Part shown: positions 1 to 9,490 of the stretch, piece by piece | Layout: every line of letters begins with the position of its first letter | How positions within the stretch are numbered: position 1 is the first letter of the stretch | Origin: Dicyema japonicum | Taxonomy: Eukaryota > Dicyemida > Rhombozoa > Dicyemidae | DNA length: 64,000 bases | Reading direction: 5' to 3' | NCBI GenBank assembly: GCA_011109175.1 | Contig: RDEW01000004.1 | Span: 1,016,030-1,080,029, forward strand | Translations under genes and position numbers: made by a program | Notes under the pieces: model-generated | Databases searched by the model: none | What the model saw: the letters and a program-made list of their open reading frames with translations, nothing else | Told to the model about the DNA's origin: nothing

Positions 1-39
1 AATAGCAATGTCAGCGACACCAGAAAAGTTAATGAATTT

Positions 40-250
40 GAGATTCCACTTTTGCCATGCATCTCAGGATACGCGCTGTTTTATCCTCCCCTGTTTCTCG
101 CAACCGCCCTCAGATCATCCAGATCCTATCCTATTTTCAGCTCTCTTCTTATCCAAATGAGTTCTTTTGCCGAGCGTCGACGACAACGTTGTTCTTTGTC
201 GACCTCGATGCGTTGTTTTGTTTAATGTAAAGAACTATGATTCCATGGCC
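40..250 (-). mobile_element. LINE-A 3' end fragment
   Basis: Read on the minus strand, this stretch gives a degraded version of the LINE-A C-terminus (a DDLRAVARNRGG-like string) that also ends the larger copies at 422 and 9490. It is only the last part of the element and has no long ORF. Confidence 0.5.
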
Positions 251-289
251 TGATTGGCCGTGCCATTTCCGAAGCTCTTAAGATATCCA

Positions 290-350
290 AAGAGCTGCCA
301 TTCCGCCTAAGTAACTTAATATAATAACACCAGAAACCACGGTTACACAA
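290..350 (-). mobile_element. LINE-B 3' tail fragment
   Basis: The reverse complement contains the string TTTGTGTAACCGTGG followed by TGGTGTTAT. The same string follows the LINE-B stop codon at about 60890. It is probably a severely 5'-truncated insertion lying between two LINE-A pieces. Confidence 0.5.
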
Positions 351-421
351 ACTAATCACTTTTTAGCATGTGCAGCGAAAAATATAAGAGAAAGAGTTAG
401 CTTGCTCGAAGCTCTTCTGTT

Positions 422-2330
422 CTAAGCCAGATCCCTCAGTGTGTCCAGGTCGTCACCAGATGCCAATGTTTTCTTTACGGCTTTCAGATCGTTTTGTAAA
501 ATGACCAGGAGGGTTGTTCTCGGTCTTAACGAAAGCGTTTTACATGGGATGAGTAGTAATCTCCCATGGCGATATTCGGGAGGGATGTCGGGTCCAACCT
601 CAGGACGTGTCCTAAAAGTCTCCAACAAGAGCTAATGATCTCGAGACTTAATGGCGTATATTCACACTTATTGTAAAGTCTTTTCCGCGAAATCTCGGAT
701 GGCCAGGACATTTCAGTTATGTTTTTTAGATGATTCCTGTGAAACGAGTCTCGTTTCTCCAATTCCTCTTTTGAGTTGCCCCAGGTCCCAGAGTTGTATA
801 GGAGGATTGGTTTGATAAAGGTATCGTATAACGTCATCCTTTGTTTTATTTTTTCCCTTTCCTTTTTAGCCATAGGTTATTCAGCCTATGCCGCCATGGT
901 TTTTTTCCGTATATTTTCATTATCTCCTAATTGAAAGCCAAGTTTCTTTGTGTGTCTCCATTTCTCCTCGAGTGAGTTATTCATTCGTCTTATTTCTGTC
1001 CGTTCTGTTTTTTCCCTGTTCACGGTGAGAAACCATTTCCCAAGTATATCTGGTACTTTTTCTAGTACATGCTCCAGGAGTTCTTTGTCTTCAGAGATTA
1101 GGTCGACGTCAGCATAAATCACTTCTATTTTTCCTTGGTATAATGGTCTCAGTTCCCTCATAGCGGCCTCCAAATATATTGTGAATAGTAGTAGAGAGAG
1201 TCTCCTTGAGGAGTGTTTGTTTCAAATTCTTTTGAGTAGGTTCTTCCAACTCTCACAAGGATTTCTGTGTTAGACAGAAGGATTTGGATCATTCTTAGAC
1301 TCGATTCGTCAAGAAACCCTTCCAGCACTGTCATCAATTTGTTCCTGTTTACCGAGTCAAAAGCTTTTGTAGATCTATTCCCAGAATGTGGGTGGCATTG
1401 CAATATCTTTGATGTGTTGCACATCTCTATCTGTGACTCCAGACTGCATCAGCTGTTGATTTTCCTTCTCTGAACCTACTTTCGGGTAGGTAGTCTTTTA
1501 TTCGTTCCAATACAATATTAGCTAAGACTTTCCGTAGAGAATTTGATAATATTATCGGTCGTAAGTTTTCAACCGGTCCTTTGGGTTTATTGGGTTTCTG
1601 TATTAGTAATCCCCTTCCCAGGGGTAAAGTTGAGTTAGTTGAAAACATTTCATTTAGTAGTGTAGCGATTTTTTCAGAAAGGGAGTCAAAACCGTATTTC
1701 AGTAATTCTGGGTTTATCGTAGCTTTTGTTATTTTTTAGTTTTTACATGCTGTTTTTATTTCCAAAAGTGTAATTGGTTGTTTCAAAGGCTTTCCTTTGA
1801 ATGGGGGGATTGCTGTAGTCACATTGAAAAGTTTCTCAAAATGTGTTCCAATTACCTCCGCTTGCTCTTCAGTATTCAGTGTTGTCTTTCCATTTTTGAT
1901 GATTATTCGTTCCTTCCGGTTTGTGTGGCGTAGTAAAGAACGACCATAGACACTTTTGATTTTTCAAAGCAGTTCTTCTTGGTGGAGTGTTCAGTCTTCT
2001 AATTTTTCTATGGCTTTTCTCTTTGTAGTCTTTTTCGTTTAGTTTTTTAAACTTTTTTGCAAACTCCTCTGCTAGTTCTGTATCTTTCGACCCATACTGG
2101 CCGTACGTATATGGCAGTTAAGTTCTTGTTAGTCACTGGTTTCACTTGCTTGAAGGGATCGGGGTTAATAAAAAAAGAGGTTGAATTAATTAACATATAT
2201 TCAGTCCCCACGATCGTAGTAAGACTCATCCATTCTAAACATCGTGTCCATTTATACTCGCAATTGCGGAAGTCTCGCCAGTGGTGTTATGAGGAGAGTG
2301 ATTTTCCGGTCAAATATTGAGCGTCTTCTG
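422..2330 (-). mobile_element. LINE-A copy, RT part, broken
   Basis: Minus-strand pieces line up in order as one decayed reverse transcriptase. An LRPIILSNSLRK fingers motif and KSTADAVW lie near 1500-1650. KAFDSVNR and TPQGDSL lie near 1230-1390. The catalytic YADVD box, in place of YADD, is near 1110. A YNSGTWG/HRNHLKN block and the LGHVLRLDP...NIAMGDY C-terminal motif lie near 600-850. The end is a DDLDTLRDLA string at 422. Each block is in a different frame or ends in a stop, so the copy is dead. The 1650-2330 part is upstream linker with no recognisable endonuclease. Confidence 0.85.
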
Positions 2331-2496: not shown

Positions 2497-5400
2497 TTAG
2501 ACAGTTTTCTTTGAATTCATTGTTAAAATATTTTGTTCAATATTATATTTTTTCATTAACCTCTCCCTAATCTTATTACGTTCTGATTCTGAGGATTGGA
2601 TAGTTAATTCGTTTTTCTTTTGAATTTTAATTTTCTCATCTCTTGTCATTTTGTATTGAGAAATTAAGTTCCTGGCCTTTTCAATCAACTCTGTTATTTT
2701 TTCGTGCCTCATCTGTTCCTCACTGCAAGTTGAGTTATAGTTTTTGTAGTCGTTGCGTAAGTTGGTGGTCGTTTTTGACAGTACAAGTTGATCCATATTT
2801 TCAAATGGTGAATTATCAATTCCAACTTTGTTTTTCTCGTTGCGTGTAGTTAGTTTTTTTTTGAGTTCATCCATCAGTTCCGGAATTGGATAATGGAAAG
2901 TTTTATAACTTTTGGGATTTCTATATTCATCCGTCGGGGGAATTCCATCATCGAATTGAGAAGTATCTCCAATACTTAAAAACTTCATATTCGACTCACT
3001 TGTTAAACAAGATACATCCTCGCTCGGTCTTTCCATTAAACAAGGGGGTTGTTTGCTCGATTCACTCATTAAGCAAGATACATCCTCGCTCGGTCTTTCC
3101 ATTAAACAAGGGGGTTGTTTGCTCGATTCACTCATTAAGCAAGATACATCCTCGCTCGGTCTTTCCATTAAACAAGGGGGTTGTTTGCTCGATTCACTCA
3201 TTAAGCAAGATACATCCTCGCTCGGTCTTTCTATTAAACGAGGGGGTTGTTTGCTCGATTCACTCATCAAGCAAGAGAAATTATCGGTTGGTTTGTCCAT
3301 TAAACGATAGGATTGTTTGCTCGACTGACTCATTAGGCAAGAGAGATTATCGGTTGGTTTGTCCATCAAACGATAGGATTGTTTGCTCGACTGACTCATT
3401 AGGCAAGAGAGATTATCGGTTGGTTTGTCCATCAAACGAAATGATTGTTTGCTCGACTCACTCATTAAGGATATAGACTTTATTGATTTGAATGAAAAAT
3501 CTATGGGCGGTTGGATGACGTCATAATTTTGGGATCTAAAATGTAATTTAGTATTACCCTATCGAGATTGATTTATTGAGAGAGTCAATACTGAACATTT
3601 TTCTAATATTAGGATCTATAAGGTAATTCAGCAATCAAACAATCAAGTAGATTTTTACCCTCCGGAAGGGTTCTTATAGAGGCAAGTTTAAAAGTCTGTG
3701 CCTTATTTTTAATCGAGAAAAGAAATTTAATTTTATTTTTCGGGCTACAACGCACATCACAACCATTAATCTGGAAAATTAACTCAAATATAACCTCCAG
3801 GATAAAATCGTTGTCTTTGAAACCAGCCTTTTCCTCTTCTGAGTGTCTCTCCACCTTTTCGATAAAGTTGAATGACGGAATAGAACTATACCCTGACTCC
3901 AAATCCTCGGGAATCTTCTTTTCTAGTATTAAAGATTTACTGCATTACTTGAGGTACCACGAAGAAACACTCCCAATCTACTGACTTTCCGAGAATACCA
4001 CAGACTTCTCACTGAGAAAGACCTATATTTTTGTTACAATCGAACCTATCCGATTCCGAAATAGTGGATTCAGTATCATAACCACATAAAGCTACATAAT
4101 CAAATAAAAAGCTACAAAATATCGAAGTTATTGAATATTTGTGCATTCGTAGTTTTCTGGCGAATTTGGAGGTGAATATTCTACTCCCATACTTTTCGGA
4201 GGATTTGTTTATTATTAAGCTATTCTAGAAACTTGTGTTATGTGAAACTACAGTTCTCAATAAGGTATTCATTTTAGAACTATAACCGACGCTTTTCTCA
4301 GCATTGTAAATGAAGGCTGAAATCACTAAAAATCGGGTACCATCATCATTCTCAACAAAAGACAGCAATTTCACGAAATTGTTATTCTCAACCTTTTGAG
4401 CCACCATTAAAGGAGTCTCCAAGAGTGAATTCACCACATTAAACTGAGCACCTTTTTTGATTAAATAGGCTGCCGATTTAATCTTTGATCATTAAATCTT
4501 ATACTTTATCATTTAGGACGCAAATATGCACGCACGTGTCCCCATTATTGTTGATGCTGTTAATTTCGGCTCCATATTGTATAAGCAATGAAACCACCTG
4601 AACGGAATGCATTTGACAAGCCTGAATGAAAAATACGACACAACCAGATGCAACTCGGTATTCCCGTCAGAATCAACGCAGTCAAGCGGGGAGTCATTTT
4701 CGATCAAAAATTTGATCATTTCTAAGGAACCCTCGTTTTTAATGGCGCAGAAAAGGGGGGTAAAGTTAAAAGAATCCCTTATTGAAGTACTTAATCCCAA
4801 TTCTACCAAAGTCTGCCAATAAAAATTATGTTACCTTTATGACCTCAAAGTTGTTGTATTGAACCGCCTTATGAAAGGAAGTAGATAACTCAATGTTCCT
4901 AAAATCGAGAAATGCTCCATTTTGAAAAAATTCGTAAATTAAGTCAATTGTTCCAATTTGACCACAAAGTGTTATTGGTGTTTCTAAAAAGTATTTCTTT
5001 CAGTAAACCTCCAGTTTTTTGGTCGATTACATTTGGATCGAATCCATTGGATAGCATATTCTTAATCACGGCAAACTCATTATTTTTAATGTAAGTGAAT
5101 ATCACGGAGAGATCATCCTACCTTAACAATATTGGGCTGACCTTGCGCACTTTCGGTGGGAATTTCTTAAAACACCTTGTTTTAGGGTGAAACTAAATAT
5201 CATCAACGTCACTTAACCTTTAAAGTTTGCATTGGGCGATCCAAGTCGTATTCCTGCAACCGTTTCCATTCGTCAAGAAACACTCCGTCTTTATTAAACC
5301 TATCAGGGACATAAAAACCAAAATTTATGGAAAGTTTTAATCTCTAAAATTTTATCACTCGTCAACTTTTCCAATTTCTTCTATTAAATGCTTTTTTATA

Positions 5401-5537
5401 TCCCATATGAGCACGTTTCCATCAGTCTCTATTATTTTCTAAAATTTGAATCTGTAAAATACCTCAAAATTTATGCTTGGGACTATAATACGAAGTAATA
5501 GACTATTGGCAGGAGAATTGACTTTTCCTAAAGACAT
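2497..5537 (-). CDS. SHANK: SHANK scaffold protein, 16 exons
   Basis: Removing 15 GT...AG introns of 22-27 nt gives one 893-residue reading frame (2682 coding bases). Introns are 5439-5462, 5344-5366, 5193-5217, 5118-5141, 4984-5008, 4813-4834, 4622-4644, 4483-4504, 4317-4340, 4225-4251, 4023-4045, 3923-3948, 3771-3794, 3616-3640 and 3536-3557. Domain order is that of Shank: a ubiquitin/FERM-like SPN domain (about 12-95, with LLLRIIVPS and INFGFYVP), ankyrin repeats (about 110-330, with NGAFLDFRN, NTELHLACQMHS and NNGDTCVHIC), then a PDZ domain (about 430-520, with LGVFLRGTSKK, AGFKDNDFILEINGCDV). After the PDZ come seven 22-residue repeats (572-725) and a charged, partly coiled-coil tail. 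No SH3 and no C-terminal SAM domain are visible. Shank is a postsynaptic and junctional scaffold in other animals. Start is the ATG before SLGKVNSP; the frame has no break. Family assignment is secure; tail function unknown. Confidence 0.93.
3004..3465 (-). repeat. Seven tandem 66-bp coding repeats in SHANK
   Basis: Seven units of exactly 66 bp encode MSESSKQPPCLMERPSED followed by VSCL, or close variants. Three units carry the SQSSKQSYRLMDKPTDN form, one carries PPRLIERPSED and three are the PPCLMERPSED form. A degenerate eighth start (SESNMK) follows. Because 66 is divisible by three, all six frames stay open through the array and give spurious plus-strand ORFs. Confidence 0.95.
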
Positions 5538-6683: not shown

Positions 6684-9490
6684 TAAGGTGGTGACGACAT
6701 TTCTAATGCACAAATGTCTGAAACGCACTTGAAGCGCTTGGAGGGGCTTAAAGTAACATCTATCAATGTAAGAGGGATCAGCAAGGAGTGGAAAGAAACC
6801 TGTTATGTTCGAATCTAGAAAGATATGGTGCAGACGTGGGATGCCTACAAGAGACAAAAATACAGGCTGGAATGGACGAGCTACGTGGAGACTATAGACT
6901 CATTTTACTATCATTGTCATCAAGAAACTATGGACAAGGGTTTGCCGTGCACAAGAAACTTGTTCGCGGAATACATCGGTGTTGGAGTGTTAACTACAGA
7001 ATCAGCATACTGCAAATACGGGTTGGGGTCAAACGCACGTCGAGGGCCCTTATCTCAATTATAAATGTTTATGCACCCCACAGTTGACGGGTCGCCAAAG
7101 ATTCGGACGAACTTGATACTTCCTAAATGCAGCTGTCGATGATAAATGCCGAACTGGAATCATCTATTCTAGTCTTCATTGCCGGAGACTGAAATGCTAA
7201 AGCAGGAGTACGTCGAGAACATGAGTCGACTATCGGAAGACATGGAAGAAGGATCAGGAACCGGCTGGGAGCTGTGCTGATAAATTTCTGCCTGGTATTT
7301 GGTCTATTCCTGTGTAACACTGTGTTTGCGCATGCTACAAGGCATAAGACTACTTGGACGAGCTGCAGAAGAAATGAATCTGGGGGCCATGTGATGATAA
7401 ACAATCAGATTGATTAAATTCTTTGCCGACAGAAAAATAGAACACTATTACGGGACTCGAGGTCATACGGAGGGGCCGTCGTGAAAAGCGACCACAAGAT
7501 CGTCGTGGGCCTGTTTGATATTACAAGTCGCTATGCACCTACTTTAGGAACAAAGTCATCTCAGGTCATACGGAGAGGATACCTAGTCGAGAGATTATGT
7601 TTTTCACACTTGACTCGAAATATCTATCGAGCATCGATGGAACATTATCGAACACATTGGGAGGCGGCCGCACAACGCACGAGGTACCGAGCAGGGTCAC
7701 CCCGATGTTCCCGCACTAGCTGCAAAACAGAAGGATCTTCGACTATCGCTAGAAAACATGACGAACACAGTAAAATGCTTTTTACAGTCGGAACGTACCA
7801 GGATACAGAGAAAAATCAGAAAATTAAACAGTGAACATGTTGCAAACGTTTTGGATGCAAGGCTAAAGGAAGTGGAAAATCTAAAGGATTGTGCGCAGAT
7901 GTTCTTGGCAACGCGCCTGCTTAAGAGGAGGAACTAAGAATTCAGGATAACAAAGGGAATATGATTTTTGACGCTACAGAACAAGCCGAACTAATTGCTG
8001 CTCATTTTGAACGATTTTTTGACGTCGACAGGGAAAAGGTGAACCTAATCCTGGTAATGCAGAAAATCTTGTAAATGAAATCACAGTAGGAAAAGTTATG
8101 AAAGCAATAGAGAGACTGAAGTGCAATCCCTCGTCAGGATTGGAAAGCATAAGTGCTGAGTTACTAAAGTACGGCCTAAAAACCCTGGTGGAAATCGTGG
8201 CCAAAGTATTAACCTTCTTTCGTTGGGAAAAGGAATTCTGGTGCCGATTCAAAAACCGAATAAAAGGGCGGGCCTTATGGAAAACCTGCGCCCAGTCATC
8301 CTACTTAATACGCTAAGAAAGGTTCTTGCTCTGGTGATGCTGGATCGTGTGCAAGAGCTTGTGAATGAATTTATGTCATCGATTCACAGTGGATTCAGGA
8401 CAGAAAGATCTACCGCTGATGTGGTCTGGGGCATAAGTGGCGTTGTGCCACTTACCAAAGATTTGAGAGTGCTACTACAATTTTGGGGATCGACATGTCG
8501 AGAACTTTCGACACAATTCACCGAGGAAAGCTTATTGATGTTTTGCGGGGATTCCTTAATAGCGATTCTGTCAGGATGATGTAAGTTTTATTGTCGAACA
8601 CAGAACTGACGATACGAGTTGGGAGTAGGAAGGCTGTAAATTTTTCGAAGACTGTGGGTACCCCCCAGGGGGACTCCCTTTTCTCTTTGCTGTTTGTGGT
8701 ATACCTGGAGGCAGCACTGCGTGGTCATATAAGTTTTTATAATGGGCAAATCACCGAAATTGTATACGCTGATAATGTGGATTTCGTATCTGAAGATAAA
8801 GCAGCCTTGAGGCGGTTACTTAATGTTGCCCCTGCAGAGTTTGGGAAATGGTTTCTTACTGTGAATACAACTAAAACTAAAATTGTGGAAATCGTACGCA
8901 TGGGATCAAGATAGGAAGAATGATGGAAACGTTCCAGAAAGCTCGGCTCCCTCCTCGGGGACAGTGAGGACATCACCTGGAGGAAAGTACTATCCACGGT
9001 CGCACTGAACAGGATGAAGACGAATAATCGGTAACGATCAAGCTTCTTTTGCGCCTCTACAATGCTTTCGTGAAGCCAGTCCTGCTATATAACTCTACCC
9101 GCTGGAGGATATCGGTCTCAGAAACCAAAAATCTTAACTCCTTCCATCGAAGGCAATTACGAATACTGTGCGGGGTACAATGGCCGACACGGATCAACAA
9201 TAAGGCACTGTACCGAAAGTGCACAACGCGATCTGTGACTTGGGATGTAGTGGAGGCCCGATGGAGACTGTTAGAACACGTCATATGGATGGACCCCACA
9301 TCACCTGCAAATTTGGTAATGGAAGAATATTTCGGTGCAAGTGGAAATAAATATAGGGGGCGCTTGCGTACTACGCTACCGGGAGTGCTGGATGAGGATC
9401 TCAAGGCAATCAACCGGAGGCTCGTAAGTAAGGAGGATCTGAATGCTATGAGAAGTTTGTGTGTAGCAGGGGAAGATGGACGAGATTGAT
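6684..9490 (+). mobile_element. LINE-A, near full length, frameshifted
   Basis: The copy starts with the GAGGTGGTGACG-like 5' motif shared by other LINE-A copies. The endonuclease/exonuclease/phosphatase domain follows: VTSINVRGI, CLQETKIQAG, GQGFAVH and INVYAPHS up to 7085, then a GDxNAKAG remnant near 7190. The RT domain shows KPNKRAGLMENLRPVIL (8250-8300), RTERSTADVVW, GTPQGDSLFSLLF (8660), YADNVDFVSED in place of YADD (8765-8800) and KWFLTVNTTKT. The C-terminal block 9049-9489 has LYNSTRWR, HRRQLRILCG, WMDPTSPANLVMEEYF and EDLNAMRSL. Several frame changes break the element, so it is not active as it stands. Confidence 0.9.

Follow-up and report, generated by a model that had tools for sequence, protein, structure and literature searches.

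In the postsynaptic density, SHANK is seen as the master scaffold. Vertebrate SHANK3 has the order SPN, ankyrin repeats (ANK), SH3, PDZ, proline-rich region and SAM, and it is compared here with a SHANK-family gene of the dicyemid Dicyema japonicum, gene A, which lies in a 64,000-nucleotide stretch of contig RDEW01000004.1 (assembly GCA_011109175.1, positions 1,016,030 to 1,080,029; this whole stretch is the window below). Gene A is like SHANK3 in its order of SPN, ankyrin array and PDZ, in the columns of Arg12 and Lys22, and in a PPxxF motif after the PDZ domain. It differs in that SH3 and SAM are undetected, in a lysine at the histidine column that opens PDZ helix alphaB (alphaB1), in a short tail with seven 22-residue repeats and a predicted helix, and in an identity that amounts to 22-30% by domain.

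Other SHANK proteins depart from the vertebrate layout, and neither the loss of SH3 nor the loss of SAM is, by itself, unprecedented. SH3 is not universal in SHANK: Caenorhabditis elegans SHN-1 lacks it, as gene A does, but keeps all the other mammalian SHANK domains, SAM included, unlike gene A (PMC5432211). Only part of the metazoan SHANKs carry a C-terminal SAM, and the SHANK of Monosiga, like gene A, comes from an organism without neurons, but, unlike gene A, has both an SH3, placed between its PDZ and its SAM, and the SAM itself, which may have been acquired independently (PMC2824662). SHANK, Homer and DLG are older than animals, and SHANK has apparently been lost in the placozoan Trichoplax (PMC2824662); in the myxozoan M. 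honghuensis no SHANK was detected (PMC8855578). Joint loss of SH3 and SAM in two dicyemid SHANK paralogues did not turn up in listings of open-licence PubMed Central papers, and the word SHANK does not occur in the main text of either of two dicyemid genome studies (PMC6543705, PMC6736024).

Gene A and its parts are as follows, in window coordinates.

5537 to 2497, minus strand: gene A, SHANK-family, 17 exons, 878 amino acids, intact frame (hand splicing).
5537-5463, 5438-5367, 5343-5218, 5192-5142, 5117-5009, 4983-4835, minus strand: exons 1-6 (hand splicing).
4812-4645, 4621-4505, 4482-4341, 4316-4252, 4224-4116, 4091-4038, minus strand: exons 7-12 (hand splicing).
4011-3949, 3922-3795, 3770-3659, 3615-3558, 3535-2497, minus strand: exons 13-17 (hand splicing).
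4115-4092, minus strand: uncertain in-frame intron of 24 nt; kept in the coding sequence, it gives 886 amino acids and 15 introns.
5166..5510, minus strand: SPN domain, residues ~10-100 (Protein Data Bank (PDB) search and alignment).
4341..5117, minus strand: ankyrin repeat array, residues ~109-336 (Pfam Ank families, SHANK3 alignment).
3998..4340, minus strand: linker of ~80 residues between ankyrin array and PDZ, at the position of the vertebrate SHANK SH3 (Pfam).
3675..3997, minus strand: PDZ domain, residues ~418-508 (PDB search, three-way alignment).
3496..3510, minus strand: PPIDF, residues 542-546, which fits the PPxxF Homer-ligand pattern.
3007..3468, minus strand: seven 22-residue (66-bp) tandem repeats (Tandem Repeats Finder, unit comparison).
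2509..2718, minus strand: predicted long C-terminal helix (AlphaFold2 (AF2) single-sequence model).

Gene A is a real, intact gene. With 16 introns removed, the frame is unbroken over 878 codons from an ATG at 5537 to a stop at 2497, and all 16 introns are GT-AG, with sizes of 22-27 nt and a single exception of 43 nt (median 24 nt; 15 of 16 shorter than 30 nt) and an AT content of 0.71 versus 0.64 in the exons. Published intron lengths are a median of 27 bp in Dicyema sp. and of 57 bp for orthonectid introns (PMC6543705), a mean of 38 bp in the 67.5-Mb, 36.7% GC genome of D. japonicum (PMC6736024) and means of 82-507 bp in myxozoans (PMC8855578). Together with an assembly of 64.7 Mb, the tiny introns of gene A suit a dicyemid best. 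A first-pass annotation of the window had given the gene these same coordinates and this strand, and all three peptides that it quoted are present in the protein. Its counts of 15 introns and 893 amino acids deviate a little from the 16 and 878 given here or, with the uncertain intron kept as coding sequence, from 15 and 886.

Membership in SHANK, with an SPN-ANK-PDZ core, had been proposed in the same annotation and is upheld by searches of PDB sequences. The SPN domain with its linker finds SHANK3 first (E 1.2e-9; next is talin-1 at 0.084), the region of linker and PDZ also finds SHANK3 first, albeit weakly (E 8.8e-4), and SPN and ankyrin array together align with SHANK3 in a single collinear stretch of 327 residues (10-336 to 12-348, E 7.2e-42). 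Searched alone, the ankyrin array ranks SHANK3 no higher than 29th when scores are summed, since a long repeat protein collects its score from many stretches; the SHANK3 match is nevertheless a single stretch, worth 105.8 bits, that covers almost all of the array, and no individual stretch shown for the three highest-ranking ankyrin chains exceeds 63.6 bits. Pfam reports Ank_2 (6.2e-28), FERM_f0 (3.7e-4), the fold class of SPN, and PDZ (0.19), the latter two below their own cut-offs. Residues 1-557 share 27% identity with human SHANK3 1-685. The 55 proteins listed by a search with full-length gene A all carry ankyrin Pfam domains, and SHANK is not among their names; of 306 candidates for residues 1-150, not one reached E<=0.01; with the SHANK3 SPN as query, the best 120 of 596 matches were all vertebrate by name.

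Human SHANK3 1-685, searched against the whole genome (64,672,829 bases in 191 contigs), reaches gene A only at E 0.115. Its best match is C181:735200-736069 (E 4.7e-15), within a second SHANK gene, gene B. A COX1 search of the same assembly yielded no match at E<=0.01.

C181:736355 to 733464, minus strand: gene B, second SHANK, 15 exons, 14 introns, 835 residues (spliced by eye).

Gene B shares with gene A the SPN-ANK-PDZ core. Against PDB sequences, its SPN with the start of the ankyrin array matches SHANK3 at 3.3e-29 and its PDZ region matches SHANK3 at 1.3e-12, and the PDZ domain scores above the Pfam cut-off. Judged by sequence, gene B is a clear SHANK, the genome holds at least two SHANK genes, and gene A is the faster-evolving of them; the first-pass annotation had treated gene A as "the" SHANK orthologue, which the better conserved gene on C181 contradicts. 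The C-terminus of gene B, HTIF, fits a class-I PDZ ligand and might be bound by the PDZ domain of gene B itself or by a different one.

In a three-way alignment, identity to SHANK3 in SPN, ANK and PDZ is 40, 40 and 36% for gene B and 30, 30 and 22% for gene A, and gene A is taken as the divergent copy because its pairwise identity to SHANK3 is the lower; between genes A and B the corresponding values are 31, 35 and 36%. Eleven of the 16 gene A introns match gene B introns in column (within one) and phase, nine of them in SPN-ANK and two in PDZ, with five unmatched, and at the column of the uncertain intron 4115-4092 gene B has no intron. Because 11 introns are common to both genes, the duplication is placed at the DNA level and not at reverse transcription of a spliced mRNA. 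Up to residue 508, the NG86 estimate of synonymous divergence between A and B is undefined (saturated) and that of nonsynonymous divergence is 0.76; in the ankyrin part, differences at codon positions 1, 2 and 3 are 0.50, 0.36 and 0.66, so position 2 is the most conserved. Since 878 codons stay open while synonymous sites between the two genes are saturated, gene A is unlikely to be a dead copy.

The histidine at alphaB1 of a PDZ domain selects class-I ligands. Gene B keeps this histidine and an FGFVLRG loop, as in SHANK3, unlike gene A, which has lysine in the histidine column and an LGVFLRG loop. The SPN basic pair is present in both genes: R16 and K26 of gene A align with the R12 and K22 columns of SHANK3, where gene B has R and R.

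The tandem repeat array of gene A has a period of 66 bp, 7.3 copies and a 92% match (Tandem Repeats Finder), in agreement with the seven-repeat tail of the first-pass annotation, and its units form two subtypes (3+4), the four 3' units being nearly identical and the three 5' units making up the second subtype; this is the pattern of tandem growth. Tandem Repeats Finder found no tandem repeats in gene B, which keeps proline-rich stretches. Each gene has one PPxxF motif, PPIDF in gene A and PPPDEF in gene B, and vertebrate SHANK3 carries PPPEEF. For the last exons, low-confidence AF2 models give a terminal helix of 70 residues in gene A (exon residues 273-342; mean pLDDT 53 overall, up to 82 per 10-residue block in the helix) and a helix of 40 residues in gene B. 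The same annotation had read a coiled coil in the tail of gene A, where a helix is predicted but its hydrophobic heptad periodicity does not stand out from shuffles (292 of 2000 were as good); for the gene B helix, 77 of 2000 shuffles are as good. Opposite the repeat array, on the plus strand, a 203-codon open frame spans window positions 2865-3476; the 66-bp period allows it, and it is probably there by chance.

SH3 was not detected in gene A by Pfam (whole protein at E<=1, most of linker and PDZ at E<=10), nor was SAM (whole protein at E<=1), as had been noted at first pass, and in gene B neither domain was detected at E<=1. In the genome, a SAM_1 profile search gave five matches, none on C126 or C181, and a SHANK3 SAM query reached at best E 0.47, on C124. 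These negatives refer to the spliced models of genes A and B, outside which exons could escape, and to an exon-by-exon search of the genome. The SAM domains of other genes lie at C172:90031-90213, C124:21841-22207, C45:877350-877526 and C124:118973-119143; by eye, the five matches on these contigs look STIM-like, liprin-like or other. Because neither gene A nor gene B shows SH3 or SAM, the loss of both domains most likely preceded the duplication, and because gene B is also without tandem repeats, the simplest order puts the loss of SAM before the repeats of gene A. The repeats occur in one copy only and are no straightforward exchange for a lost SAM; the earlier proposal that repeats and a coiled coil had replaced the assembly part of the protein is not supported in that form.

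Other explanations of the locus were weighed against this evidence. It is very improbable that gene A is a generic ankyrin-PDZ protein outside SHANK: ankyrins and designed repeats do come first by summed score when the ankyrin array is searched, but the SPN domain alone and the PDZ region each choose SHANK3 first, and 11 introns match those of a clear SHANK gene. Gene A might instead be a decaying duplicate drifting to loss, in whose weakly selected tail a minisatellite expanded. Its lower conservation than gene B against SHANK3 in all three domains, a PDZ below the Pfam cut-off and an array of near-identical 66-bp units such as minisatellite growth typically leaves would all agree with decay, and we still consider it unlikely, given 878 open codons and 16 of 16 GT-AG introns despite saturated synonymous sites relative to gene B, and given that codon position 2 is the most conserved between the two.

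Two further alternatives concern the tail, and we hold each to be quite improbable. The repeat exon could be part of a neighbouring gene, with SHANK ending soon after the PDZ domain; the connection depends on a pair of inferred introns that includes the 43-nt exception, the first repeat unit opens with ATG, and the tails of A and B cannot be aligned above shuffles. However, both acceptors end like the other introns of gene A, and gene B has the same layout of PDZ, intron, short exon, intron and long tail exon with PPxxF. The other proposal makes gene A the only SHANK of the animal, with SAM replaced by seven repeats and a coiled coil for oligomerisation. Gene A does show no SAM and does have repeats and a predicted long helix, and the helix predicted in the tail of gene B leaves a helix as a possible SAM substitute; yet gene B is a second and better conserved SHANK, which contradicts "only", it lacks SAM and SH3 while having no tandem repeats, and heptad periodicity in the gene A helix is no better than in shuffles.

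We regard it as probable that gene A is an intact, divergent SHANK paralogue beside the better conserved gene B, that SH3 and SAM were lost before the two duplicated, and that both would serve as scaffolds in the roles proposed below. Several observations weigh against this interpretation. The exon joins of both genes were set by eye, from genomic sequence alone, and with vertebrate SHANK3 as the sole SHANK outgroup, a lineage-specific duplication is something that we infer. Pfam Ank_2 and FERM_f0 score gene A above gene B (1.1e-24 and 0.073 in gene B), and the change of FGF to LGV in the carboxylate loop of the gene A PDZ is conservative. A PPxxF motif arises in 8.8% of shuffled gene A proteins, and local alignment of the A and B regions after the PDZ, which contain the motif, is no better than that of shuffles (333 of 500 as good); because of this chance level and this alignment, inheritance of PPxxF is not claimed. 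The single-sequence AF2 models of both tails are of low confidence, and the two predicted helices are not alignable above shuffles (800 of 1000 as good). Homer, GKAP and talin were not found in the genome, in an exon-by-exon search that had no working positive control and that, with a human SHANK3 query, reached gene A itself only at E 0.115, so these partners may yet be present.

A KFGQW pattern has two matches in the genome, neither of them Homer, and a WH1 match at C142:208489-208632 was considered as Homer and rejected as WASP-like by eye. A GT-AG intron of 23 nt seems to interrupt this WASP-like piece and again points to tiny introns in this genome. At C111:57978-59210, three PDZ matches lie in a 454-codon open frame, possibly DLG or another multi-PDZ scaffold.

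In the roles that we propose, gene A would be a cytoplasmic cortical scaffold. Its SPN domain still presents the basic pair with which SHANK3 meets Rap1/Ras-type GTPases, K22 of SHANK3 being a contact residue, and may bind such GTPases. The SHANK3 SPN sequesters Rap1-GTP and limits integrin activation, and R12C abolishes this (PMC11928058). The ankyrin array of gene A may hold cytoskeletal or adhesion partners. The gene A PDZ probably takes classical SHANK PDZ ligands poorly, because it has lysine at the class-I histidine column, and such ligands would be left to gene B, whose PDZ keeps the histidine. In what is the weakest step, the gene A tail, with seven copies of a short unit and a predicted helix, might form multivalent or self-associating contacts without SAM. 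A fuller scenario, in which loss of SH3 and SAM was followed by duplication and a division of work, gene B as the classical scaffold for PDZ and PPxxF partners and gene A as a Rap1/Ras-binding, PDZ-altered protein that clusters through its repeats and helix, is put forward tentatively, and we think it rather doubtful as a whole.

The setting in which such scaffolds could work is indicated by the gene content described for the animal. A study of Dicyema reports one integrin alpha and one integrin beta gene, 18 copies of cadherin and adherens junctions, as well as both glutamate receptor types, with voltage-gated calcium channels in a hypothetical scheme (PMC6543705), and Cav1 is a target of SHANK in the muscle of C. 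elegans (PMC5432211). A search of the present genome for integrin beta gave one piece, at E 0.001. A cortical scaffold linked to adhesion or calcium is plausible for genes A and B, because integrins, cadherins, adherens junctions, glutamate receptors and the calcium-channel scheme have all been described in Dicyema; the junctional or ciliary role suggested in the first-pass annotation stays a conjecture.

The sequences flanking gene A, window 1-2300 and ~6700-8000, resemble, by eye, broken pieces of LINE reverse transcriptase and endonuclease.

If this interpretation is true, two dicyemid SHANKs without SH3 and SAM would show that SPN, ANK and PDZ are the parts needed without neurons, and that the polymerising SAM is dispensable in SHANK. 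A conserved and a diverged gene in the same animal would be a natural pair for asking what SHANK does outside synapses, and the tail of gene A may offer a SAM-free route to SHANK multivalency in a nerve-free animal.

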